IMG/VR virus record: IMGVR_UViG_3300044736_000016
Location: 1-64,000 of that record
DNA: 64,000 nucleotides
Direction: 5' to 3' (one strand)
From: a virus
Under the pieces are notes generated by a model, which was not told the origin of the DNA, made no database searches, and saw nothing but the letters and a program-made list of their open reading frames with translations. The number at the start of each line of letters is the position of its first letter. Within the stretch, counting starts at the first letter, position 1. Positions 8,262 to 40,551 of the stretch are shown piece by piece. The translations under genes were made by a program, and so were the position numbers.

Positions 8262-8383
8262 GCTCCCTCCGTACCGGCGACGGCCGTACCGTCGTCTCTA
8301 TGATCGCGTTTGTCTCTCAGCGTGGAGATAGGCACGATCGTCCCGCCCACGGCCGCAGCGGGCAAGTGCGAGACGTCGGCCAT
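8258..8383 (-). CDS. 41-residue hypothetical protein
   Basis: Starts in a TGATG junction with the VirD4/TraG-like ATPase and ends in an ATGA junction with the next gene. The N-terminal half is hydrophobic (VSHLPAAAVGGTIVPIST), the rest charged. Coupling on both sides supports it. Confidence 0.5.
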   Translation of the reverse strand: MADVSHLPAAAVGGTIVPISTLRDKRDHRDDGTAVAGTEGA

Positions 8384-10152
8384 CAGGCGCCCTCCTGCTT
8401 GGCAACGTCTGCGGTTTCCGCGAACATGTCCGAGAACACCCCTGGTACGCCCGCATCTGTTTCGGTCGAACCCTGCTCGTGGATCTGGTCGAGCCCGTAC
8501 GGCACCGTGAGCTTTCCCCACATCTCGAACGGACGAGTGTCGCCATGGTAGACCGTCTTGGCAAGCGTGATCCGCTCGCTCATGCTGATAAGTACCTTGC
8601 CATCCGCGATGTTGGTGATCTCATGCTGCGGCCAACGCCATTCATCATGCGGCGTCACAGTGCGGGTGACCGTACGGGTGCGCCGCTGCTCCTTGTGCTG
8701 CGCATGGCGCTCGTGGCTGGCGTGGTCGTCGTCGACCGTCGGCTGCTGGCGCCACCACGGGGCACGGGTGCGGGCCACCGCCTTGGTCGTCCGGTGGATG
8801 GTGTGCTTGCCGCCGGTCCGCTCAAGGCTGGCGAGCAGCTTGGGATCCTTGCACCCGCGCAGCACAGCGGTGACCGCCATGCCCTCGCGGACCACCCTCT
8901 CGGTCTCCGCGTTCCACCGCAGGCTGAACTGTCCCATTGCCTGCACGGAGGCCATGAGCACGACCCCGCGTCCTCCCCCGTCGCCGATGATCCGCGTGAG
9001 AGACGGCAGGGGACTGAGCGTCGCCATCTCGTCCAGCGCAAGCAGGAACGGCCGCTCCAATGGCTGCCCACCCCGGCTGTCGGAGATGGTGTATGCCGCC
9101 TCCGTGATCTCCTCGATTAGCCCGGTGGTCAGCGGCGCCAGGTCGCAGTTCGGGTCCGAGGGGGCGACGACGAACAGCGCATGATCGCGGCCCAACTGCG
9201 GTCGGACGCTCGGGTCATGCTCGTCGTATCCGAGGAACTCGTACGGGTCGAAGCCGCACTCGCCAGCAAGGTTCGCATCCGCCAGGACCCGCGGGTTGTC
9301 GAACGCCGAGATGGCCGCGTCGAGGCAGGACCATACAGACCCCACCTCATCGCTCTCGCGCACCTTGGGGTCGCGCAGGGTCAGGCTGGCTAGGTTCTCG
9401 AGCGCCTGCCGGTCCGGGCAGAGATGTGGGTTCCCTTCCCACCGCGCGATCCTGGTCTTGAGGATGTCCGCTGGCTCGTCCACGTTGTGCTGCTTCACCC
9501 ATGAGCGGACGTGCCCCATGCCCTTGCCGTCCAGCGCAGCGGCGTACAGGAGCGGCGCAAGGTACTGCGTGGCCCGCGTCTGCCAGTGGCTCGGATCCTT
9601 GGCCCCTTTGCCGGCGTTGATGCCCATGGCTCGGGCGCGCTTGGTGGCAACGTAGAAGTCCTCGCAGCCTCGCAGCGGAGACCAGTGCAGGCGACGCACC
9701 CACGGCGGCACGTCGTCGGCTCCGAGGATCTGCATGGGGTCGAACACCCACACCTTGCCGCGGTAGGTGCGGACCGCCTTGCAGTGCTCAAGGATGTCCG
9801 GCTTGGTACTCGTGGCGACGACCGGTCCCAGCCACGCCTGCACGTTGGGGATGATCAGCGTGGCGGTCTTGCCTCGCTGCGAGATGGCGACGATCAGGAC
9901 GTGCTCACGCGGAGGAGCCTGCACGAACCGGCCCTTGTCCCAGCCTAGAATGGGGCGTCCGGGGATGATCCCGTGCCAGATCGGGTCAACGGGATCAAGG
10001 CAGTGTAGCCGGGGCGGACGGAGGCGCTGGCCATCGCGGAACACTGGGGAGGCGTGGTACTGAGCGAGGAGGCGCGGACCGTAGCGCATCTTGCCGTGCC
10101 AGCCAAGGCCACTCATCCCGGCGAGAGCGGCGACGATCTCGGGGAGGATCAC
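8383..10152 (-). CDS. VirD4/TraG-like coupling ATPase
   Basis: 589 residues related to type IV secretion coupling proteins, which pump DNA to a conjugation channel. HVLIVAISQRGKTATLIIPN (about 84-103) is the Walker A region, with the first Gly of the P-loop replaced by Ala; ATSTKPDILEHC follows as in TraG/VirD4; RPFLLALDEMATLSPLPSL is Walker B; ASVQAMGQF is the sensor region. Unlike VirD4 and TraG, no clear N-terminal membrane anchor is visible. No relaxase or VirB4 homologue is present in the window. It may move the phage genome during conjugal-type transfer, or work with the nearby membrane proteins as another translocase. It overlaps the gene upstream by ATGA. Confidence 0.8.
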   Translation of the reverse strand: MILPEIVAALAGMSGLGWHGKMRYGPRLLAQYHASPVFRDGQRLRPPRLHCLDPVDPIWHGIIPGRPILGWDKGRFVQAPPREHVLIVAISQRGKTATLIIPNVQAWLGPVVATSTKPDILEHCKAVRTYRGKVWVFDPMQILGADDVPPWVRRLHWSPLRGCEDFYVATKRARAMGINAGKGAKDPSHWQTRATQYLAPLLYAAALDGKGMGHVRSWVKQHNVDEPADILKTRIARWEGNPHLCPDRQALENLASLTLRDPKVRESDEVGSVWSCLDAAISAFDNPRVLADANLAGECGFDPYEFLGYDEHDPSVRPQLGRDHALFVVAPSDPNCDLAPLTTGLIEEITEAAYTISDSRGGQPLERPFLLALDEMATLSPLPSLTRIIGDGGGRGVVLMASVQAMGQFSLRWNAETERVVREGMAVTAVLRGCKDPKLLASLERTGGKHTIHRTTKAVARTRAPWWRQQPTVDDDHASHERHAQHKEQRRTRTVTRTVTPHDEWRWPQHEITNIADGKVLISMSERITLAKTVYHGDTRPFEMWGKLTVPYGLDQIHEQGSTETDAGVPGVFSDMFAETADVAKQEGA

Positions 10153-12132: not shown

Positions 12133-15100
12133 CTATCCCATCCCGTGCGAGTTGCCGCCGATTTCGTGCGGCGGCGTGGTGTCTGTCTCTGCCGCGGAGT
12201 GATCCGGGGCGAGGTCTCTCGTCTCGGCCGTATCGCGCTCCGGCGTGCGGTCGGCCCTCGGCTCATCGTCACGCTTCGGCTCTGCGGGCTCCGGCGTGTG
12301 ATCTGCCTCCTGCTCATCGCGTCCCGGCTCGTTCTTGGCGGTGCGATCGGCCATCTCGGGCGCAGGCTCCGATTCTGGCGTGTCATCGGGCTCCGGGCGG
12401 GCTTCATTTGGCTGCTCGCGGTCCTGCTCCTCGGCAGCGTCAGGGCGCGACGGTCCATCAGTAGGCCGATCAGTAGCGCGCTCCTCCACGGCGTCATCCG
12501 CGGGATTGACGATCAGTTTGCGGTCTTGCGCCAAGTCTGCGAGTAGAGGCTGATCCGGGATTGCGTCTTCGGCAGTTGTCCGTGGATCCCCGACAGCGTG
12601 GAGAGCGTCATTGATGGGGACGGCGTTGGTGTCTGGAGCGTCCGGCGGATCGGTACCTGCGTCCACGACGCCTATAACTTGCCCGCGGTTATTCAGAAGC
12701 TGCCCGCCTGAATCCCCTGGATCAGATCGTGCGTCCACTTCGATGGTGTCAGCGACGTGGACAGGCTTCCCGGTGACATCATCTGGACTTGTGATTTCGT
12801 CCGCATGCGGGCTGGTCACGCGGCCGGTGTGGCTGTCGGTGCTGTGGCCGTAGTCGCCGACGATGCTCACAGGATCGCCAACCGCCACGTTTTTGGAGTC
12901 GCCGAGCACGGCCGGGTTCATTGGTGGTGCTCCCTCCACTTCCAACAGGTCAACATCGTGAGCCGTGTCGTCTCTAAGTACGAGTGTCTGATATTGATGG
13001 CTATCGACTTCCACGATCGTCGGCTGGTGCAGAGCAGCGGCATCCTCAACAACGTGGTGAGCGGTGAGTAACCGGTTGCCTGGCAGTACAATGCCTGTGC
13101 CCACGCCGTGGCCGGATGGATCGACGATGCGCGCGATGCCAGCATGGGTGGCGGTTGGCGCTGGTGAGATTGGTACTGGGGTATCGTGCAGAGTAGGTCC
13201 ACCGCTAGCCATCAGCGCTGCCGCGACAATGCCGACGCTGGGATGCGTCACCTGCCTATGCGCTGGCATTTCTTCTGCGCTGACGTGAGGTGTGTCGATC
13301 ATCTGCGGCACGGACCTTTCTGGTACTTCTACACTGATCGGCTTTGGCGACAAGCCAACCAGATCCGCGAGCCCATGTCGCTCCAGCACGTCGGGGTCAT
13401 GGGGTGGGCGCTCTGCTGGCTGCGCGTCGTCGACCGTGGGAGGTGGCGGTAGCTCGGCGTCTTCCGGTCGCCCAAGCCCACGTCTGCGCTCGGGTGGCAC
13501 GGCGTCCTCGGTCTCGTTCCCTGCGTCGATCGGAGCCCGTTCGGGCAGCCCACGCTCCCCCGCTCGAGTAAGCCCACGTCGGAGTTCGGGCGCTACGCCA
13601 TCCTGCTCTGCCGTGCGGCTCTGTCCGTACACAGGCTCAGGCAGATCGCCAGTGCCAGCCTGCCGCAGACCACGCTCGCGCTCTGGCGGTGTGGTGCGTG
13701 GACCCTGCCCGCCCAACCTCGTCCACGCCTCGTCCAAGTTGCGCTCGAAGGTCTCGCGGTCGACGGGCAGGCCACGCTCGCGTGCCTTGGCAGCCACTTG
13801 TGCCTGTGTGGCGTAGGCGTCGCTCCAACCCGGCGGTGTGGTCGTGCTGGCGGGCTCGGCATCACTTACCGCGCCGTCTCGCAGCCACGACGTGTCCGTC
13901 AGCGGGCTGGGGACGTTCTGCCGTGGGGCACTCGGGCTAGCCTGCTGCTCCCACATTGGCGCTGCGTCGCGGAGGCGTCCAGACTGCTCACGCTCGACCG
14001 GAGCGGCCTGCATCTCACGCAGTGCGGATGCGTCGGTGATCTGCTGGAGTAGGTCGGGCTCCTGCGACCCAGCGTGAAGCCGATGACGTTCTGCGGTCGG
14101 CAGGCCAGCGTGGCCGTTCCCTACCGCACCCGCCATGTCCACGATCTCTGCGGTGACGGGCCGGCCGTCCACACGCGTCACCACGGGCTGCGCTGCGTGC
14201 TCTGGTGTGGCTGTGATCCCACGGCGCTCGGCAGCGAATACGTCGTATCCATCCCGTCCCACAGCGTCGCGCACCGTTGATGTGGGCGGCGCATCGGTGA
14301 TGGCGGGACGTTCGGCGGACACGGTGCGGTCACGGTCCTGCGCATGTTCCTGCTCGGCTGCGGCCATCCGTGCCTCACGTTCCTGCCGCTCTGCCGGGGT
14401 ACGGAGTTCGTCGCGCGGATCCGGCACGACCTCACGGTGCGCTCGGTGCATGTCTGCCGCGGTGGTGCCGGGTGGAAGGCCGTTCAGGTCGTCAACCATC
14501 CACGCGTCGTTGATCGGGTCCGATCTACGCTGCTCGTCCATCCTCTGCGCGAACCGCTCTAGCCGATCGTTGCGTCCAACGTCCGGATCCACTACCGCTA
14601 TTTGCTCGGCGCTGTGGAGTTCTTTGCGCAGATCCATGTTGACACCGTTCCCCAGCGCAAGGTCGACATCGGAGTGGGACAGATGCGTGCCGAAGTCACT
14701 CTCGCGGTCGATGTCTGAGTAGTCACGTCGCCGTGCCGCTCCACTGTGCTGGATCACGGTCAGCCCTTCCGCCTCAGCCGCTTCACGGATGCGCTGTGCG
14801 GTCTCTGGAGTGGCGAACCCTTCCACCGCCGCGTTCTGGTGAAAGATGTCCCCGCCGTATCCGACGCTGTTGGCCATGCCCGGTTGAGAGCCGATGGTCG
14901 CGAACCCGGCGTGGTTCATGCGGACGAGCGGGTCTTTGATGAGCGCCGTCTCGGAGTCGGGATCGGGATGGCCGTTCGGATGTGCAAGATGACCGGGCAG
15001 GAATTGCTCTGCGGTGATCTTGCCGAGGTGGTTGATCGTCGTAGCGTCGCTCCAGTCGCGGATGACGCGCTGCTCGCGAGCGGGCCTTTCCGCAGCCAAC

Positions 15101-16629
15101 ACGTCCGGTACCGACTCCTTCACCAGCCCATGCTGCTTGGCGAGGACGGACGCGGCCGTGCCCTCTTCGTGGCCGTTGATCCTGTCGACTTGCCGTAGTT
15201 CCTCAAGCGAAGGCACTCCAATGACCTTGCCGTCCTTGTCGAGTGCGAGCGTGGAGGTGTTCGTCTCAACCCCACCGCGGAGGAATAGCGCGTTTTCTGC
15301 CACCCTGGCCGCGCGCTGAGCACGCGGAGAGGCGACGGACTGCGGCACGGCGGCTGCGTTGGCCACGGCCTCCTCGCGCTGTATGCCGTCGAGGGACCGT
15401 ATTCCTCGCTGGACCCGTTGCTCCTGGGCAGGCGTCAGGGGAACCACGCCAGCCGTGTCACGCTGCGGGGTCCGTGGCTTCCGTCCGCCGAGCACCGGCA
15501 CGCTGGAGCCGAGGGCGTCCGCGATGCTCGCCACGGACGGCATACGGCGTGGCTTGCTGGCGTGGCGCTGGCGGCCGTTGCTACCGCCGCCTCCACCGCC
15601 GTTTCGCGCTGCGCTGGCCGGTGGCTTGGCTGCGGCCCTGCTGCGTGCGTCCGGCGTGGCCGGTGGCTTCTCGCCGCATGCGCTGACCACCTTGCCGCCG
15701 ATTCCGGCGACGAACGACCCATGAGCGCCGACTTCGAGATCCCACAACTGCCGCTGCCGTACCGCCTTGCGCGCCTGCTGGTTGCCGAGCCACGAGTGGT
15801 GACCGCTGTGGCCGTGGCCTGCGTCCATGCGACGTGCCTGATACGTTGGACGGAACGGTGCGAACACGTGCTCGATATCGGTGCGCTCGCCGAGGGTCTC
15901 CGCAACGATGCCCATCATGGTCACCAGAAACGCAGAGGTGGTCGGAAGGGGTTTCCAGTCTGGGCCGTAGTAGCCCTTCAGCAGTGCACGGCGGTAACGT
16001 TCGTCCATCCCGAGACCCCATGGCGGGACCGTCTTGGTGTGAGGCTTGTCGCCGAAGTGCTCTGCCAGAAACCGTGCCTGCTCGCGGTCGCGCCCCTCGA
16101 AAGTGACGCCGCCGCCGCTCTTATCCTCGCGTCCCGTCCAACCTGAGAGATACTGGCGGATGTGCTGCGCCTCACGCTTATCCGAAGCCTTGATCGTGAT
16201 GCGATCGCCGTTGACTTCACCACTGCGTAGGTAGGAGCCGACGAGATGCCATTCCTCTGGCGTCTCCGGTGCACCAGCCGGGATCGGCAGCGGATCGATG
16301 TGAGTTGGTGTGGCCCACGCGTGGCGCCGCTTGTCGAACAGGCCCGCGCTCATCCATCCGGGTGTCCCGCCGTTCGATGTGGCCCGCACCAGCACGGGGT
16401 GGCCGTCCGACGCCTCAATCCCAGCATGCCCATGCCCAGACACCCGCACCGTCGAACCCTTGCGCCGATGGACGTTCGTGACAGGCTGCCAACTGCCGTT
16501 GCGATCGAGCACGCGGTGGCTCTGGCTGACGTCCTGCATGTGCATGATCCGCTCGTCTGTGATGACGGGCGTCTTGCCGGGAAACCCCTCGGGCGGACGG
16601 CGCGGCGGCTTGGAAATCTGCGTGGGCAT
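12133..16629 (-). CDS. Giant polyprotein: degenerate intein, DUF6919-like region, trypsin-like protease
   Basis: 1,498 residues. 1: residues about 15-320 resemble an intein: an N3-like HRVLDRNGSWQPVTNV, block B EASDGHPVLV, LAGLIDADG-like LVGSYLRSG and ALLKGYYGP, and block F LWDLEVGAHGSFVAG. The nucleophile Cys1 and the C-terminal His-Asn are lost (VVSAC at the end), and the endonuclease acidic residues are gone, so it should neither splice nor cut. 2: about 560-640 holds MNHAGFATIGSQPGMAN, resembling actinobacterial DUF6919. 3: long charged, repeat-rich linkers. 4: about 1165-1330 is an HtrA/trypsin-like protease: LLTAHHVV (His about 1189), DVDLLEVEG (Asp about 1226), DPGDSGGQLL (Ser about 1305). 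5: a Glu/Asp/Arg-rich tail. ATG 16629 is chosen because upstream codons are non-coding in character and a small membrane gene ends at 16635. Possible roles: virion protein injected with DNA, or conjugation surface protein. Confidence 0.75.
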   Translation of the reverse strand: MPTQISKPPRRPPEGFPGKTPVITDERIMHMQDVSQSHRVLDRNGSWQPVTNVHRRKGSTVRVSGHGHAGIEASDGHPVLVRATSNGGTPGWMSAGLFDKRRHAWATPTHIDPLPIPAGAPETPEEWHLVGSYLRSGEVNGDRITIKASDKREAQHIRQYLSGWTGREDKSGGGVTFEGRDREQARFLAEHFGDKPHTKTVPPWGLGMDERYRRALLKGYYGPDWKPLPTTSAFLVTMMGIVAETLGERTDIEHVFAPFRPTYQARRMDAGHGHSGHHSWLGNQQARKAVRQRQLWDLEVGAHGSFVAGIGGKVVSACGEKPPATPDARSRAAAKPPASAARNGGGGGGSNGRQRHASKPRRMPSVASIADALGSSVPVLGGRKPRTPQRDTAGVVPLTPAQEQRVQRGIRSLDGIQREEAVANAAAVPQSVASPRAQRAARVAENALFLRGGVETNTSTLALDKDGKVIGVPSLEELRQVDRINGHEEGTAASVLAKQHGLVKESVPDVLAAERPAREQRVIRDWSDATTINHLGKITAEQFLPGHLAHPNGHPDPDSETALIKDPLVRMNHAGFATIGSQPGMANSVGYGGDIFHQNAAVEGFATPETAQRIREAAEAEGLTVIQHSGAARRRDYSDIDRESDFGTHLSHSDVDLALGNGVNMDLRKELHSAEQIAVVDPDVGRNDRLERFAQRMDEQRRSDPINDAWMVDDLNGLPPGTTAADMHRAHREVVPDPRDELRTPAERQEREARMAAAEQEHAQDRDRTVSAERPAITDAPPTSTVRDAVGRDGYDVFAAERRGITATPEHAAQPVVTRVDGRPVTAEIVDMAGAVGNGHAGLPTAERHRLHAGSQEPDLLQQITDASALREMQAAPVEREQSGRLRDAAPMWEQQASPSAPRQNVPSPLTDTSWLRDGAVSDAEPASTTTPPGWSDAYATQAQVAAKARERGLPVDRETFERNLDEAWTRLGGQGPRTTPPERERGLRQAGTGDLPEPVYGQSRTAEQDGVAPELRRGLTRAGERGLPERAPIDAGNETEDAVPPERRRGLGRPEDAELPPPPTVDDAQPAERPPHDPDVLERHGLADLVGLSPKPISVEVPERSVPQMIDTPHVSAEEMPAHRQVTHPSVGIVAAALMASGGPTLHDTPVPISPAPTATHAGIARIVDPSGHGVGTGIVLPGNRLLTAHHVVEDAAALHQPTIVEVDSHQYQTLVLRDDTAHDVDLLEVEGAPPMNPAVLGDSKNVAVGDPVSIVGDYGHSTDSHTGRVTSPHADEITSPDDVTGKPVHVADTIEVDARSDPGDSGGQLLNNRGQVIGVVDAGTDPPDAPDTNAVPINDALHAVGDPRTTAEDAIPDQPLLADLAQDRKLIVNPADDAVEERATDRPTDGPSRPDAAEEQDREQPNEARPEPDDTPESEPAPEMADRTAKNEPGRDEQEADHTPEPAEPKRDDEPRADRTPERDTAETRDLAPDHSAAETDTTPPHEIGGNSHGMG

Positions 16630-29923: not shown

Positions 29924-30208
29924 ATGAGCAAGGCAACAGACAAGGCTCGAGCGGCGCTGGATGCTGACATGGACCGCTGGCGTGCTGATGCGAGGGAGCG
30001 GGCAGGGGTGCGGCTGGGGATCATTCGTAGCGCACTGTCCATGCTGCAGCAGGTTGCGCCAAGGCTGGTCAAGGACCGCCATCTTGATGGGGATGCTGGC
30101 GACATGGCCATGGCGACCATGCTGGAATCGTCCGGCGTCATGATCGACACGGACGAACTGCTGGAGATCATCGCGTTGGCCGCCAGGCAGTTCGAGTTGC
30201 CGAGATGA
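29924..30208 (+). CDS. Hypothetical helical protein
   Basis: 94 residues, fully helical (KATDKARAALDADMDRWRAD and on). AAGGAG about 8 bases before ATG. Overlaps the DUF262 gene by ATGA, so the two may work together. Confidence 0.65.
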   Translation: MSKATDKARAALDADMDRWRADARERAGVRLGIIRSALSMLQQVAPRLVKDRHLDGDAGDMAMATMLESSGVMIDTDELLEIIALAARQFELPR

Positions 30209-30756
30209 CCACCACGACCCGCGGGCTGCCGAAGGTCCACCCGCAGATGTACTCCTACCCAGTCGACCACTACCGGATGCTGGCGTCCCAGCCCGGCCGC
30301 CTCGACCTCAACCCTCCATACCAGCGTGGCTCGGTGTGGGGCACGGAGCGCAAGCGCAACCTCATCAAGTCGCTGCTCATGGGCCTGCCGATCGGCGCGG
30401 TGTTCCTCAACTCGCGGGACATCATGCAGCCGGATCGGGTGGTGGACGGCAAGCAGCGCATCGAGGCCATCCTCGACTTCCTTGGCGATCGGCTCGCGGT
30501 GCCCGCCGTATGGTTCTCCGAGGACGATCTGACTGAGGCGACAGCAGGGCAGTGGGGCAGCGGGAACCTTACCACGGACATGGTGTCGTACTCCGATCTG
30601 ACCCTTCCCGTGCAGCGTCGGTTCAACGATTCCACCGTCGCCACATACCAGACCAAGCTCCGCACCGAGGCCGAGGAGCGCGAACTGTTCCTGCTCATCA
30701 ACTACGGCGGGGTGGCGCAGGGCGATATGGACGCCGATGCGGGGGACGGGCGATGA
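30205..30756 (+). CDS. DUF262 (ParB/GmrSD-fold) protein
   Basis: 183 residues. LDLNPPYQRGSVWGTERKRN, IKSLLMGLPIGAVFLN and VVDGKQRIEAILDFL are the DUF262 signature (P.YQR..VW...LI.S...G.PI, DGQQR). The family has a ParB-like NTPase/nuclease fold and includes the GmrS-like part of type IV restriction enzymes. Here it stands alone without the DUF1524 HNH half, so cleavage is uncertain; roles in anti-defence, defence or partition are possible. Confidence 0.8.
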   Translation: MTTTTRGLPKVHPQMYSYPVDHYRMLASQPGRLDLNPPYQRGSVWGTERKRNLIKSLLMGLPIGAVFLNSRDIMQPDRVVDGKQRIEAILDFLGDRLAVPAVWFSEDDLTEATAGQWGSGNLTTDMVSYSDLTLPVQRRFNDSTVATYQTKLRTEAEERELFLLINYGGVAQGDMDADAGDGR

Positions 30757-31016
30757 GCACCGACTTCGACGTTGACGCCGAAATGGACCGCTCACGTGAT
30801 GAGAGCAGATGCCTGGACCCGCGCCTTGACGAAGCGTTGGAGCGTATCGGCACACTGGAGAGGCTTGTCAGACGCATGGCGCGTTCTCTAGCGGGCGACG
30901 ATGGTGCGGACATCGAGGAGGACGTCCGCATGTCGACAGCCTGCTCGTGCGATCTCGCTGAGTGGGGCAGCCACATCCACGACTGCCGGTTCGCCCCAGA
31001 GGATCGACGCCGATGA
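30753..31016 (+). CDS. Hypothetical protein with coiled coil and Cys/His tail
   Basis: 87 residues; LDEALERIGTLERLVRRMAR is a coiled coil, followed by STACSCDLAEWGSHIHDCRF, a Cys/His cluster. ATGA overlap with DUF262. Confidence 0.6.
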   Translation: MSTDFDVDAEMDRSRDESRCLDPRLDEALERIGTLERLVRRMARSLAGDDGADIEEDVRMSTACSCDLAEWGSHIHDCRFAPEDRRR

Positions 31017-31285
31017 CCATCCGCCGCGAGTTCCCGCTCGGCATGAAGGAGATCGCAGCCCTCCTCGGCGTGAAGCAGTCCGCAGTCTGGCAGTGGGAGA
31101 AGAACCGCAAACTACCTCCCGAGGACGGCTGGATTAGCGGACGTAAGGGCTGGTGGCGGGCGACCATCTTGGCGTGGGACGCAGCAGGGAGGCCACGAAG
31201 GTCGGCGCCGCTCGCGGAGGCAGGCGTGACTGAGGTTTGCCCAGAGTGCAGCAGTTATCACGATGGTGGACCGTGCGAGTGGTAA
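31013..31285 (+). CDS. HTH DNA-binding protein
   Basis: 90 residues. MKEIAALLGVKQSAVWQWEK (about 11-30) is a clear helix-turn-helix of the excisionase/AlpA or DNA-invertase type; RKGWWRATILAWDAAGR forms the following wing/helix. A C-terminal CPECSSYHDGGPC could bind zinc. Possible excisionase or regulator of the operon. Confidence 0.7.
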   Translation: MTIRREFPLGMKEIAALLGVKQSAVWQWEKNRKLPPEDGWISGRKGWWRATILAWDAAGRPRRSAPLAEAGVTEVCPECSSYHDGGPCEW

Positions 31286-31289
31286 GGGA

Positions 31290-31317
31290 TTGACGGACGT
31301 GGGCTTATCACTACAAT
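31290..31317 (+). promoter_or_regulatory. Orphan promoter of candidate small RNA
   Basis: TTGACG (31290-31295), 16-base spacer, TACAAT (31312-31317). No rightward gene follows; only the structured stretch 31321-31394 does. Confidence 0.6.
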
Positions 31318-31323
31318 AGAAGC

Positions 31324-31394
31324 CACACGGCTATCACGCTCACCGCTGGGAAGTGCAGCGGACCAGAGGCCACTCCTAGCGCTGGAGTGGCCTC
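31324..31394 (+). ncRNA. Candidate small RNA with terminator
   Basis: Downstream of a good orphan promoter, about 70 bases hold CCGCTG/CAGCGG (31343-31361) and a 10-bp terminator-like stem (31366-31394), plus a weak AGCC/GGCT stem at the 5' edge (31321-31332). No ORF. Candidate antisense or protein-binding RNA; the same hairpin could instead only terminate converging transcripts. Confidence 0.45.
31366..31394. terminator. Bidirectional terminator hairpin
   Basis: GAGGCCACTC and GAGTGGCCTC form a perfect 10-bp stem with a 9-base loop, placed between converging genes (stops at 31285 and 31399). No long U-tract on either side. Confidence 0.65.
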
Positions 31395-31398
31395 TCTG

Positions 31399-33519
31399 CT
31401 ATCCAGCCCTCCGCTGACCCTTCCAGTGCCTGATCAGGCGGCCCATCTCGGACTCGCTCACGTAGGCACCCTGCATCCGGCGCGTCTCGCCGTCGTCGTT
31501 CAGCCTGCAGAGCATGTCCCCACGGCCCGCCAGTTTCTCCGCTCCCATCTCATCGAGAATGACCCGCGAGTTCACCCCGCTCGAGACCCGGAAGGCGATG
31601 CGGCTGGGGAAGTTCGCCGTGATGTCTGCTGGGATGAGTTCCGCCGAGGGTCGCTGGGTTGCCGCGACAAGGTGGATCCCGGCCGCCCTGGCAAGCTGAG
31701 CCAGCCGCTGCAGGGCCTCCTCCACGTCATCCTTCGCCCGGAGCACAAGGTCGGCAAGCTCGTCGATCACCACCACGATGCGGGGCAGGGGCTCGGCCCT
31801 AGTGTTGTGCTGGGCGATGTTCTTTGACCCACTGCCGGCGAGGATTCGGTACCGCTTGTCCATCTCGTCGACCACCTCGCGGAGCGCCTCAACCGCCTCG
31901 TCAGCGTCGTTGACGATGGGCCGTAGCAGATGGGGGATGCCAGCGTACCCCTCCAACTCGACCACCTTGGGGTCGATGAGCACGATCCGTAGTTGATCCG
32001 GGGTGGACTGCAACAGGAGCGAGGCGAGCAGGACGTTGATGTACACGGACTTGCCGGAGTTCGTCGCCCCGCCGATCAGCAGATGCGGGGTGGTCGTCAG
32101 GTCGCCGACCGCGGACTGCCCGGAGAGGTCTGCGCCGAGGGCGATGGCCAGCCCGGTGCGGGCCACGATGCGGAAGGCCGGGGCCTGCACGAGGGACCGC
32201 AGGGTGACCAGCTGGGCGGACTTGTTCGGCACCTCGATGCCCACGGCGGCCTTGCCGGGGATCGGCGCCTGGATCCGGATGGTGGCCGCAAGGGCGAGGG
32301 ACAGGTCGGTCTGCCGCGTGGTGATGCGCCTGACCGACACGCCGGGGGCAGGCTGTAGGACGTACTGCGTGACCCGCGGGCTGGGGTTGACCTCGATCAC
32401 CCGACCCATGACGCCGAAGGATTCCAGCGTGGATTCGATCAGCGAGCGGGTGTTGGCGATCTCCGCTTCCTGCCGAACGCGGTCAGTCTTGCCCTCGTCT
32501 AGAAGGTCGATGGGCGGCAGGAGCCACTCTGAGTGCCCCGTCTCCAAATCTGGCAAGACCATGAGCGCGGTCTGTCCGGAGTCGCCAGCTGGATACTGCC
32601 CGTCATCCGTGGCGGGTTTTGGAGACTCCGATGGGCGCGGAGGGTTCGCCATGGCCTCTCGCATCGGGCCGGCCAGCCACGGCACGCCCTGCCAGTTGCG
32701 TCCAGCCTGAGCGGGAGCGTGCGTCTCGTCCTCCGCAGGCTCCTCCGTGTCGCCGCTCTCCTCGCCACGGATCCATCCCCACAGTCGCTCAGACCGTAGC
32801 CCACGCCGCATCCCGTCGCGCATCGCACCGGCCACCACCGGCACATCAAGGTCCACGGCTAGCACCAGGCCGAGGCACGTCAGGCCGACGAACAGCACCA
32901 CCGACCACCACGGCCCGACCCAGCCAGCTGCCGAATCCGCCAGCGAACCTCCGACCGACCCTGCCCCGCCCCGCGTCCACGGCACCAACGCGGTCAGCCC
33001 GAGCAGCCCCGGGATAGCGATGCCCACCCCCGCAGCCGAGGCGTGACCGTGCCCCAGCAGCAACCGAACTCCGACCAGCAGCAGACCGGCCACGAGCAGA
33101 GCATCCCCGACCACCCCCAGCCAGTCCGTGAGCATCGAGCCCTGCGGGATGAGCAGGAGCGGGATGGAGAGCAGCGCCGCGATGAGCGCCCCGACGCCGT
33201 GCAGGTTGCGCCGCTGGTCGTGGGTGACCTTGGGCGCCTTGGCGGTACGCCTTGCCGGTCGTCTGGTCCGGGTCGCCATCACGCCTCCTGCGGGAAGGTC
33301 GGGGAACTTGCGGCCGTGCTCTTTCTCATGGCACGGACGGCAGAGCACCATGAGGTTCGCACGCCTGCAGTCGTTCGGTCTGCGGTTCTTGTGGTGAGCC
33401 TGTAGCGCCCGATCCGTCTTGCACCGCTTGCATCTCTGGCCTCGGCGGAACTCGCGGCTGAGGTCGGGCCAGCACTCCGGGTAGTCGGTGCCGGGGTAGA
33501 CGCGGAACGTGGTAGCCAC
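31399..33519 (-). CDS. ftsK: HNH domain fused to FtsK/SpoIIIE DNA translocase
   Basis: 706 residues. Residues about 30-68 are an HNH/zinc domain (CKRCKTDRALQAHHKNRR, MVLCRPCHEKEH). Residues about 100-215 hold four TM helices. Residues about 350-700 are an FtsK motor: Walker A GGATNSGKSVY (about 480-490), Walker B VVVIDELADL (about 585), then LAATQRPS and FPSRIAFRV. No gamma DNA-binding domain is visible. ATG 33279, behind AGGAGG, starts an FtsK product without the HNH. Related one-protein pumps (TraB) drive conjugation of Streptomyces elements, so this is a strong candidate for DNA transfer or segregation. Confidence 0.88.
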   Translation of the reverse strand: MATTFRVYPGTDYPECWPDLSREFRRGQRCKRCKTDRALQAHHKNRRPNDCRRANLMVLCRPCHEKEHGRKFPDLPAGGVMATRTRRPARRTAKAPKVTHDQRRNLHGVGALIAALLSIPLLLIPQGSMLTDWLGVVGDALLVAGLLLVGVRLLLGHGHASAAGVGIAIPGLLGLTALVPWTRGGAGSVGGSLADSAAGWVGPWWSVVLFVGLTCLGLVLAVDLDVPVVAGAMRDGMRRGLRSERLWGWIRGEESGDTEEPAEDETHAPAQAGRNWQGVPWLAGPMREAMANPPRPSESPKPATDDGQYPAGDSGQTALMVLPDLETGHSEWLLPPIDLLDEGKTDRVRQEAEIANTRSLIESTLESFGVMGRVIEVNPSPRVTQYVLQPAPGVSVRRITTRQTDLSLALAATIRIQAPIPGKAAVGIEVPNKSAQLVTLRSLVQAPAFRIVARTGLAIALGADLSGQSAVGDLTTTPHLLIGGATNSGKSVYINVLLASLLLQSTPDQLRIVLIDPKVVELEGYAGIPHLLRPIVNDADEAVEALREVVDEMDKRYRILAGSGSKNIAQHNTRAEPLPRIVVVIDELADLVLRAKDDVEEALQRLAQLARAAGIHLVAATQRPSAELIPADITANFPSRIAFRVSSGVNSRVILDEMGAEKLAGRGDMLCRLNDDGETRRMQGAYVSESEMGRLIRHWKGQRRAG

Positions 33520-36271: not shown

Positions 36272-36805
36272 TCACGACGCCTCATCCACGTCGCGATCAG
36301 CCTCGCAGTCTCCGACAGGTGCTGGCGGCACAACCGAAGGCGACGGCAGGGTTGCCTGTCTGATGATCGCCATCACCGTCTCGGTGGCCTCCGCGTACTT
36401 GGAGCCGCGGCTGCGGTTCACCCCGTACACCTGCTCCACGATGAACGGCACGGTGGCTCCGCTGTGGACTAGTTCGATGACCTGCCGATTGACGCTCTCC
36501 GCGATCTCAGGGGCGATCACGGTATTGGTGTCGTGCAGCATCCGAACCTCCGGCCTGCGTAGTGGCTCATTCATGGCCGATGGAGTGATGTCCGTGCCCC
36601 AGTCGAACCCGAAGCTAGCCATCGGCGGAGCCGCCAGATACGCGATGAGTCTGCGCATCGTATCCGGCTCGTCGCGAACGAAGCCAAGGGCACAGTTGCA
36701 GGCATTGCAGATCAGTCCACGTATCTTCCCAGTTTCGTGGTCGTGGTCTACGACCAGTTTCCGGTACTGGGTGCATCCGATGCAGGTGCCGAAGACATTG
36801 CTCAT
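36272..36805 (-). CDS. Recombination endonuclease VII with extra C-terminal module
   Basis: 177 residues. TCIGCTQYRKLVVDHDHETG followed by GLICNACNCALGFVRDEP is the zinc-binding, catalytic core of the T4 endonuclease VII family, which resolves branched DNA before packaging. A second domain (about 105-155: SGATVPFIVEQVYGVNRSRG, then AEATETVMAIIRQA) matches the C-terminus of the ATPase encoded by the next gene upstream, with which it overlaps by ATGA. Confidence 0.85.
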   Translation of the reverse strand: MSNVFGTCIGCTQYRKLVVDHDHETGKIRGLICNACNCALGFVRDEPDTMRRLIAYLAAPPMASFGFDWGTDITPSAMNEPLRRPEVRMLHDTNTVIAPEIAESVNRQVIELVHSGATVPFIVEQVYGVNRSRGSKYAEATETVMAIIRQATLPSPSVVPPAPVGDCEADRDVDEAS

Positions 36806-38469
36806 AGGTCATCCTCTCTCGGTTCGTCTTCCATCGGCAGAATGGTCAGCGCAGGCACCGCCTCAGCGCTCGGCGGACGAGGGATCGCACTACGGATCAC
36901 CTCGCTCACCTCGGCGCACGCCGTCACGTATGGTCGCCCGCCCCCCGGCTTGATCCCGTAGATGTCGAGCACGATCTCGGGGACGAGAGACCCTCCGAGG
37001 AACAGTTCCATCACCCGACCCTCCAACACGCGCGCGCGCGAGGGCTCCTCTGTTCCGTATTCGGATGGGGTCGGTCCGGAACAGATCGCGAGCGGCTGGG
37101 AACGGCTCGGGAACAGGGCGGGAACAGTCTGCGGAACAGGCCCGACCGTCAGCCGTGGGCCGTTCGAGGCCAGCATCCGACCCGCCAGAGCGATGGCCTC
37201 GTCGTCCACGCGAGGCACCCAGAGCCGATGCGTTTCGCCCGTCGTCGGTATCACGTAGCACTCGCCTTGGGCCAGCCGCAGGGTGTCGTTCGGCACGCCG
37301 GGAACGAGCATCCGCGCCTCGTCTGGACGCATGCGGTGGATGAAGGCGGCGGCGAGTTGGTTGCGGAACGGGCCGGATTCCCGCTTGCTCCACGTCTGCG
37401 AGATGAACAGCCCGTTGACCATCACCTTGCGTCCCTCGCGGGTGATCGTTCCGGCGTGCTCCGCGATCTCTCCGGTGGTGTCCTCGCCGATGACGCGCCT
37501 CCACTCGTCCACGATTGTGAGCTCGGGCTGACCGTCTTCGATGCCGAGCTTGATGCGCCGCTCGATCTCCTCCACGGTCTCGCGCATGGCGAGCAGGATG
37601 TCCTCGTGGTCGAGGGCGATCGGTCGGATGAACGCGGCCTCGAGCGGGCGAAGGCGACCCGTCAGGCTTTTGGCGCTGATCCGTCCGTGGCCGTCGCAGA
37701 GGCGCAGGCCGGTGCCGATCAGGGCGGCTTGGATGCACAGCCATTCCGCGTCGCGAGACTTGCCAGAGCCCTGATGCCCACCCATCCCGGCCGAGTAGAG
37801 ACCAGCGAACATGTCGCCATCCTCGGTCGGCTCGGAGCGGACTAGGGAACTCGTCGCGGGATCCCAGCCGAGGGCGAGGAGTTGGCCGGGGCCGACCTCG
37901 CGGCGCCGGATGAGTTCGGTCAGCGTCGGCACCTTGACGTCGGCGGGGTTGGTGATGACCACCTCGGGCTCAGCGACGGGGCTGGCGATTCGGCGAGAAT
38001 CGTGGACCGCGTAGTGCTGTAGGCCAGCAGGCAGGGCTGGATTCGTCGCTAGCAGGTTGCGGGTCTGCATGGCGCCAGAGTTGATGGCGATTCGCAGTTC
38101 TGGCGTCAGCCCCTGATACGCCACCGCCCCGGTGAGCCTGTCCGGCATGTCACGCTTGCGCCAGAAGTGCCACCCGAGCGCAGCCGGAGATCCGACCGCT
38201 CCCACGAACACCGCAAACAGCACGCCGTCCTCTACCAACCGCAGCCACGTCGTCGGCCGGTCGAAGTGCCACTCGCTGTCTAGCTTGGCGTTTACGGCGT
38301 CGATCTTGGCCTGCCGTTGCTCTTGGCTGAGCCGAAGGTCGGTCTCGATGCGAACCTGCTCTTGTGTCGGGCCGGGGGTGGTGATCGCAGACCAGCAGAA
38401 GCCAATGCCGCATGCGCAGAACCCGGCAGCTGCGAGAGAACCGGCCCAGCGGACGTGCGAGTGGCTCAC
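36802..38469 (-). CDS. FtsK/HerA-like membrane ATPase
   Basis: 555 residues. Two TM helices (about 7-30 and 78-100) precede a P-loop motor: GMGGHQGSGKSRDAEW (about 225-240) is Walker A, LTIVDEWRR (about 320) Walker B, GLFISQTWSKRE the sensor region. The last 90 residues hold the module shared with the endonuclease gene (LVPEIVLDIYGIKPGGGRPY). GTG 38469 is chosen because it overlaps the previous stop (GTGA) and directly precedes TM1. Such proteins are typical of actinobacterial plasmids and integrative elements; DNA transfer is the likely role. Confidence 0.8.
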   Translation of the reverse strand: MSHSHVRWAGSLAAAGFCACGIGFCWSAITTPGPTQEQVRIETDLRLSQEQRQAKIDAVNAKLDSEWHFDRPTTWLRLVEDGVLFAVFVGAVGSPAALGWHFWRKRDMPDRLTGAVAYQGLTPELRIAINSGAMQTRNLLATNPALPAGLQHYAVHDSRRIASPVAEPEVVITNPADVKVPTLTELIRRREVGPGQLLALGWDPATSSLVRSEPTEDGDMFAGLYSAGMGGHQGSGKSRDAEWLCIQAALIGTGLRLCDGHGRISAKSLTGRLRPLEAAFIRPIALDHEDILLAMRETVEEIERRIKLGIEDGQPELTIVDEWRRVIGEDTTGEIAEHAGTITREGRKVMVNGLFISQTWSKRESGPFRNQLAAAFIHRMRPDEARMLVPGVPNDTLRLAQGECYVIPTTGETHRLWVPRVDDEAIALAGRMLASNGPRLTVGPVPQTVPALFPSRSQPLAICSGPTPSEYGTEEPSRARVLEGRVMELFLGGSLVPEIVLDIYGIKPGGGRPYVTACAEVSEVIRSAIPRPPSAEAVPALTILPMEDEPREDDL

Positions 38470-39769: not shown

Positions 39770-40551
39770 GCACAGAGCCGAAGCCGTTGTGGCAGATAAT
39801 GCCCGAGATGAGCGAGGCAGAGTTCCAGCGGTTCGTGAACCGGATCGCTGCGCATGGATACCTGTCCAGCCAAGAGGTGCTTGTCGACCGCGATGGCCAG
39901 ATCATCGACGGCCACCACCGGGCTCGGGCCTGTGCGGCACTGGGTATCGAGTATCCGCGCCGCGTTCTTGACCAGGAGATGACCGACGACGAGAAGTGGG
40001 AGATCGTCTGGCTCATCAACGTCTCACGCCGTCACCTGACCCTCGATCAGCAGCGTGACCTCGTCCGCCAGTGGTTGAAGCGGCACCCTGAGACCTCCAA
40101 CCGCAGCGTGGCAGCCGACGTAGGTGTGGATGACAAGACTGTCGGCAAGATCAGGGGCGAACTGGAGGCGTCTGCGGAAATTCCGCAGACGGTGCGTCCC
40201 CACCAGCGTCAGGACCAGAGGCGCAACGGTGTGCCTACCGACGATCCGGAGCCTGACACCGTCGAGGCTGACGAGCGCGAGTTGATGACCGACGTAGCCG
40301 ATCACCGCAACGGAGTGTGGTTCGAGGTCACCATCGGGTATCCGGCTCCGAGCCAAGTCGCACGCCAGCGTGGCGACCTCCCCTACTCGCGTGAATCCGA
40401 GCGCCGTGAGTGGCACTCCACGCGGCTGTACCTGACCGCTCCAGCCCCACAGTCCCTGATGGATGGCGCCTCGGTGGTGAAAGAACTCGCCGAATCCCTC
40501 TGGCGTCAGATGCAGGCCGACCCCTTGCTCACGATGCTGATCCATGCCTGA
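39766..40551 (+). CDS. ParB-like DNA-binding protein
   Basis: 261 residues. The ParB/Srx N-domain is seen in YLSSQEVLVDRDGQIIDGHH and RARACAALGIEYP, where IIDGHHRA is the family's GxxR-type core. A helix-turn-helix follows (TSNRSVAADVGVDDKTVGKI, about 130-155). The C-terminal third is a separate beta-rich domain. It may centre plasmid partition or regulate the head operon it begins; no ParA is visible in the window. Confidence 0.8.
   Translation: MSTEPKPLWQIMPEMSEAEFQRFVNRIAAHGYLSSQEVLVDRDGQIIDGHHRARACAALGIEYPRRVLDQEMTDDEKWEIVWLINVSRRHLTLDQQRDLVRQWLKRHPETSNRSVAADVGVDDKTVGKIRGELEASAEIPQTVRPHQRQDQRRNGVPTDDPEPDTVEADERELMTDVADHRNGVWFEVTIGYPAPSQVARQRGDLPYSRESERREWHSTRLYLTAPAPQSLMDGASVVKELAESLWRQMQADPLLTMLIHA

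Follow-up and report, generated by a model that had tools for sequence, protein, structure and literature searches.

Does a phage gene in which an HNH nuclease is joined to an FtsK pump give rise to one product or to two, and on which DNA would such a pump act? This question was raised by a stretch of 64,000 nucleotides (the window) from the phage record G000, for which the original prediction, made from the sequence, had proposed that cutting is coupled to transfer. The gene and its parts are located in the window as follows:

31399..33519, minus strand: HNH-FtsK fusion gene, taken from the ORF list and accompanied by homologous fusions in the loci L002 (contig G001) and L088 (contig G002)
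33304..33519, minus strand: HNH nuclease-type domain, aa 1-72, with PHROG, PADLOC and Pfam matches and a complete CxxC..HH..N..CxxCH..H motif
33277..33289, minus strand: candidate second start, formed by AGGAGG (33289-33284) and ATG 33279 (M81); Shine-Dalgarno match, and native FtsK N-terminus by alignment
32848..33204, minus strand: membrane region with four hydrophobic helices, aa 106-224, according to hydropathy and to AF2 helices between 100 and 222
32224..32520, minus strand: FtsK alpha domain, aa 334-432 (PF17854, E = 2.2e-28)
31645..32160, minus strand: FtsK/SpoIIIE motor core, aa 454-625 (PF01580, E = 6.4e-51), with Walker A G489-K490-S491 and Walker B D586-E587

The fusion ORF starts with GTG at position 33519 and comprises 706 codons for amino acids without an internal stop. 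Both domains were matched within this single open frame, which bears out the prediction that the HNH unit is continuous with the FtsK membrane region. A search for the fusion elsewhere, as had been suggested, led to the two other phage contigs, G001 (79 kb) and G002 (31.6 kb), whose fusion proteins show 98 and 57% amino acid identity, respectively, to that of the window. The fusion is known from these three contigs only, all of which belong to one phage lineage, and the same open frame crosses the HNH/FtsK join in each of them. Between G000 and G002, codons 70-81 differ by three synonymous and no non-synonymous changes, and G002 carries two whole-codon deletions near the join that leave the frame intact. 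Since the join differs by synonymous changes and whole-codon deletions, the frame across it has been kept. A frameshift in the assembly, which had been named as a possible cause of an apparent fusion, is ruled out by the common frame in three contigs and by the restriction of indels at the join to whole codons. In the open-access literature, we found no paper on an HNH-FtsK fusion and no match to an FtsK-like phage-plasmid translocase or to DotN together with HNH and a coupling protein.

The N-terminal part of the protein was matched best by the ZorE HNH model of PADLOC (E = 1.9e-10), followed by HNH families of PHROG (E about 4e-6) and by Pfam HNH with E = 0.0021 and 18.6 bits, which is under the cut-off of 21.4 for this family. 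The motif residues C30xxC33..HH42-43..N55..C60xxCH64..H68 are invariant in the four aligned sequences, i.e., the three fusions (window, L002, and L088) and L094, a separate HNH protein of viral origin. The concern that the HNH might lack all catalytic residues is thereby removed, and a degenerate HNH is ruled out by the invariant motif. In an AF2 model of the HNH part alone (mean pLDDT 67), two strands are followed by a helix in the H-beta-beta-alpha order, and a Foldseek search with this model gave top rows that were mostly HNH nucleases, all of them weak matches with a best E of 0.14. In the full-length AF2 model, the HNH part had a pLDDT of 40-63, and the membrane helices and the motor were well predicted.

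In the comparison of G000 and G002, the HNH part shows 89% amino acid identity (dS about 0.38), as opposed to 48% for the motor, and its dN/dS of 0.18 (0.12 in the core) indicates that it is under purifying selection. Between G000 and G001, dN/dS of the HNH part was 0.33, and most of the 9.5 non-synonymous changes fell within its first 25 codons. A search for a host prophage, made with the HNH part in 301 genomes of the Dormibacterota, the phylum of the cellular FtsK locus L005, gave distant HNH matches only (28-47% identity, in 15 genomes), none of them query-like.

The sequence ahead of the membrane helices is strongly basic, with 27 lysine and arginine residues in aa 1-105, and by the positive-inside rule the HNH domain is predicted to be cytosolic, on the motor's side of the membrane. 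The Walker residues G489, K490, S491, D586, and E587 are invariant in the alignment, and the closest solved structures are the FtsK motors 2iuu and 2iut (phmmer, E about 1e-90). The gamma domain, by contrast with cellular FtsK, is lost. This domain directs FtsK and activates Xer recombination. PF09397, the gamma domain that reads KOPS, had no match in the window, L002, or L088 and thus in none of the three fused phages; Pfam matched it in the cellular loci L004 and L005 and in the viral locus L102. Past the motor, the fused ORFs extend for 1-4 residues and the cellular ORFs for at least 60 residues in 80 of 80 cases. These counts derive from a profile scan in which the motor was recognized in 161 of 161 FtsK loci, with duplicate loci of the same contigs left out; the viral loci consisted largely of the 80 best out of 283, and the cellular ones were the best out of 104. 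An HNH pattern before the motor was present in 3 of the 81 viral ORFs, which are the fused ones, and in none of the 80 cellular ORFs. This pattern would overlook an HNH that lacks the second CxxC, and in 36 of the 81 viral ORFs no more than 60 residues precede the motor.

A quick motor tree of 73 of the 161 loci, chosen by score, united the three fused motors (SH-aLRT 96) and placed them within a larger group (99) that consists mostly of chromosomal FtsK from Dormibacterota, L102 being its one other viral row. The terminal branch of the L088 motor is long (1.08), which makes the exact position of this motor less certain. With the fused motors forming one clade, a G002 motor swapped in from another FtsK clade is not supported, the long L088 branch being kept in mind. 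In the G002 motor gene (L088, 6001-8073), the otherwise conserved ATQRP reads ATQSP, and its function is possibly changed. The chromosomal FtsK proteins of Dormibacterota (L004, L005) correspond to the phage protein in their basic N-terminus at the M81 position, their membrane helices, alpha domain, and motor, with about 44-49% identity over the full alignment and about 60% for the best motor; unlike it, the cellular proteins tested have a gamma domain and no HNH. Judged by these comparisons, one phage lineage possesses an FtsK to which a nuclease-type domain was added and from which the sequence-reading domain was lost.

The join reads GCA GGA GGC GTG ATG GCG, with ATG 33279 in frame and AGGAGG four bases before it, so the prediction that both lie exactly at the join was correct. 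Translation from this ATG would give an HNH-free FtsK of 626 amino acids. Among the gene calls of the phage, AGGAGG stands 3-11 nt upstream of 3 of 389 internal in-frame ATGs, and a match of at least 5 nt was found for 12 of them. For called gene starts, the corresponding figures were 8 and 46 of 173, which are inflated because the caller rewards such sites. The internal Shine-Dalgarno sequence at ATG 33279 is therefore unusual, not unique. A spacing of 4 nt occurs at 5 of 56 starts with a strong Shine-Dalgarno sequence, and GGAGG, the 4-nt spacing, and the ATG are also kept in G002. The GTG start of the HNH part is preceded by AAGG only, and nothing clear is found at this start in G001 and G002.

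Since chromosomal FtsK proteins of Dormibacterota begin at the M81 position, with a similar basic segment in the alignment, ATG 33279 is most readily taken for the former start of FtsK. That it serves as a second start in a two-product gene is plausible from the sequence. With respect to the proposal that one gene makes a nuclease-tethered and a plain pump, the part concerning the internal start gained weight by this agreement with the native start, and the two products themselves are to be regarded as plausible. As a separate observation, the +1 frame of the HNH part (33279-33519) is closed by a TGA that shares bases with ATG 33279 (TGATG), and a +1 slip would free an HNH without FtsK that stops right where FtsK begins.

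In the comparison with the sister phage G001, two long identical tracts were found around the motor:

32516..33442, minus strand: 927-bp tract identical in G001, second in length among the 75 exact runs of at least 60 bp, ending at aa 335
30437..31488, no strand assigned: 1052-bp tract without differences to G001, located beyond the motor; the longest exact run

The third longest exact run between the two phages measures 344 bp. The 1027 bp between both tracts, which correspond to about aa 335-678 and comprise alpha domain and motor, differ from G001 at 67 positions, and the differences in the motor are mostly synonymous (dN/dS 0.04). For the motors of G000 and G002, dN/dS was 0.61 and dS 0.80. 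The tracts break at the boundary of linker and alpha domain (aa 335) and near the end of the motor (aa 678), and the 927-bp tract starts inside the HNH part, at aa 26. Because the divergent motor segment sits between the two longest identical tracts, the sequences indicate that the motor, or else its flanks, has been exchanged as a module. We do not favour an origin of the tracts by homing-type co-conversion, as the 927-bp tract begins within the HNH and the other one lies beyond the motor.

Phages commonly carry HNH nucleases as mobile genes, and the HNH part may thus be a passenger. A free-standing homing-type HNH gene would have landed upstream of the phage ftsK gene and lost its stop codon; FtsK would then be made mainly from ATG 33279, and the fusion would be a minor product without function. 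The strong Shine-Dalgarno sequence at ATG 33279 versus the AAGG at GTG 33519 and the unclear HNH starts of G001 and G002, the identity of ATG 33279 with the native FtsK start, the TGATG that looks as if two genes had once overlapped, and the resemblance of the HNH part to the small separate protein L094 are all in line with such an origin. It accords poorly with an HNH part that is more conserved than the motor (89 versus 48% identity) at a dN/dS of 0.18, with the presence of the HNH in all three members of the clade, where no empty site was seen, and with an identical tract that starts within the HNH and does not surround it. We regard this as a serious explanation, though on balance a rather unlikely one.

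Three genes near the fusion gene are relevant for the further argument:

30205..30756, plus strand: short GmrSD_N (DUF262/ParB-like) protein, convergent neighbour of the fusion gene (PF03235, 5.6e-16)
36802..38469, minus strand: second membrane ATPase, Walker A GGHQGSGKS, upstream of the fusion gene and in the same direction
36272..36805, minus strand: endonuclease VII overlapping the end of the second ATPase gene (PF02945, 1.7e-17)

The GmrSD_N protein lies beside the HNH-FtsK gene in all three phages, with 96% (G001) and 80% (G002) identity to that of the window, and relatives sought through it were just the two known contigs. A homologue of the second ATPase is likewise present in all three phages, with 43 and 34% identity to that of the window; it matched no Pfam, PHROG, or PADLOC family, and relatives sought through it included two further fragments, L201 and L202. 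Endonuclease VII and the second ATPase of G000 have a common C-terminal tail (E = 8e-7; 0.003 in L201), which was absent from all other called proteins of G000 and, the ATPases excepted, from the ORFs of G001 and G002. An endonuclease VII is located at the end of the second ATPase in G000 and in L201, where it was named by eye from the sequence, and an RNase_T-type exonuclease follows the ATPase in G002; beside the ATPase of G001 no nuclease partner was found. Together with the fusion, this makes two cases in the region of a nuclease linked to a membrane ATPase.

Record G000 comprises 109,768 bases and has a 127-bp direct terminal repeat (positions 1-127 and 109642-109768, the first copy being 1-127 of the window). 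In G001 these ends are continuous with each other, and the record probably represents an entire genome that is circular or circularly permuted. It encodes a terminase (phrog_7579, 1.3e-44), a portal protein (phrog_113, 8e-52), a major capsid protein (phrog_1005, 8e-73), and a tyrosine-type integrase (phrog_1, 2e-35), and additionally a repressor-type regulator, a weak tape-measure match, and a ParB-like protein at 39799. The element is a temperate tailed phage, and its host, judged by the FtsK, probably belongs to the Dormibacterota or their kin. In another part of the window, positions 12133-16629 code for 1498 amino acids that include a trypsin-like peptidase domain and DUF6919; the start of this protein may be Hint-like.

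The relaxase family PF03432 and VirB4-type AAA_10 over its cut-off were each found in 0 of 3 records (G000, G001, and G002, the latter two being partial). The claim that the fusion couples cutting to transfer and replaces the missing relaxase could not be upheld for this tailed temperate phage, since such a phage needs no relaxase. One gene of the window nevertheless leaves a transfer-related role conceivable:

8383-10152: VirD4/TraG-like coupling protein (T4SS-DNA_transf, PF02534, 1.7e-13; TraG-D_C, PF12696, 1.8e-11)

This protein is related to proteins of actinobacterial plasmids and 93% identical in G001, and no other secretion-system genes were recognised beside it. TraB-type pumps are membrane-associated members of the FtsK family that move double-stranded DNA. 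In a conjugation-like transfer, a pump of the TraB/FtsK type would move the element between cells and the HNH would nick the DNA, for which the VirD4-like protein, the second membrane ATPase, and a weak match of the motor to a TraB model (NF041214, 1.9e-13, far below the cut-off) might be cited. Unlike the TraB-type pumps of actinobacterial ICEs, the motor of the window groups with chromosomal FtsK and stands in a phage context. Moreover, actinobacterial TraB-type transfer of double-stranded DNA requires no relaxase, and there would then be nothing to replace. A conjugative element without relaxase was rejected as the main reading on account of the structural phage genes and the missing PF03432 and AAA_10, with the VirD4-like gene remaining, and we consider conjugation-like transfer very improbable.

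The fusion protein might also handle the phage's own genome, acting in the resolution or segregation of the circular prophage or on replication products, with the HNH nicking or cutting junctions as the pump moves the DNA. The circular or circularly permuted genome with its terminal repeat, the tyrosine-type integrase, and the ParB-like protein would suit such a role. The loss of the gamma domain, with its functions in directing FtsK and in activating Xer recombination, speaks against it; in addition, packaging needs no membrane anchor, and a terminase is present. Phage FtsK-like translocases, such as those of mycobacteriophage cluster J and Omega gp203, resemble the motor of the window as phage-encoded motors nearest to cellular FtsK. 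In the accessible part of the study describing them, FtsK-like proteins of other phages are presumed to act on phage DNA, which favours genome handling, but those of cluster J have no membrane part and have kept a gamma-like region, and this part of the text mentions no HNH fusion (PMC3706429). All in all, genome handling seems decidedly unlikely to us.

The preferred reading is that of a nuclease-armed, membrane-tethered DNA pump that arose from a captured ftsK gene and is used against DNA, with some HNH-free form made in addition; we put it forward tentatively. In Zorya II, the ZorE nuclease works with a membrane machine, and it is the ZorE-type HNH models that score best on the N-terminal part of the fusion, but ZorE is a separate and longer protein. 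In the HerA/FtsK capture systems (DndH, SspH; BREX-related), nuclease and FtsK-type ATPase are found in one protein or operon, and the SspH model of PADLOC matched the motor of the window with 6e-61. Unlike DndH, which has an REase domain and further DNA-binding modules, the fusion of the window has an HNH and four membrane helices. No PADLOC model covered the whole fusion, SspH matching the motor and ZorE the HNH separately, and none of the partners of the capture systems (DndF/G, Orc/Cdc6, D5 helicase, PglZ) was seen among the selected neighbours scanned. As far as the accessible parts of two studies go, nuclease and FtsK-type ATPase of these systems are proposed to cooperate in defence, and some of the systems took their FtsK alpha domain from cellular FtsK (PMC10853773, PMC12839542). 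By analogy, the fusion can be seen as resembling the HerA/FtsK capture systems. On the strength of this analogy, we take a pump-and-cut mechanism directed against foreign or host DNA to be the most likely one; the adjacent second membrane ATPase, which is also paired with a nuclease (endonuclease VII in G000 and L201, the RNase_T-type enzyme in G002), was counted as further support.

According to this pump-and-cut model, a temperate tailed phage would have captured a chromosomal ftsK gene, closest to that of Dormibacterota. From this gene, the C-terminal gamma domain, by which cellular FtsK reads KOPS, would have disappeared, and ahead of the native FtsK start an HNH nuclease-type domain would have been fused. 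The product would be a DNA pump, hexameric by analogy and held in the membrane by the four helices, whose HNH domains are presumably cytosolic and tethered through a short basic linker. The pump might reel in double-stranded DNA, which the tethered HNH would nick or cut, the most likely targets being the DNA of invading phages or plasmids, or that of the host while the phage takes over. The internal AGGAGG-ATG probably also yields some HNH-free FtsK, and armed and unarmed subunits could then occur in one hexamer. An extended version of the model, which we judge unlikely in its entirety, supposes that the host-derived motor without sequence-reading domain and with an HNH forms mixed hexamers of armed and unarmed subunits that cut entering or leaving DNA, that the motor is swapped as a module (aa 335, 678) with HNH, anchor, and neighbours kept constant, and that the second ATPase works with interchangeable nucleases.

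Few DNA motors are understood as well as the FtsK pumps, and pairs of nuclease and FtsK are an emerging theme in the defence against invading DNA. Seen by analogy, the HNH-armed FtsK resembles a variant of the already known pairing of nucleases with HerA/FtsK. If our reading is true, it would be a very compact version of such a pair, with 706 amino acids small enough for direct biochemistry, and would show a phage route from a cell-division motor to a DNA-cutting machine. Should the internal start be in use, it would offer a simple means to set the number of nucleases per hexameric pump.
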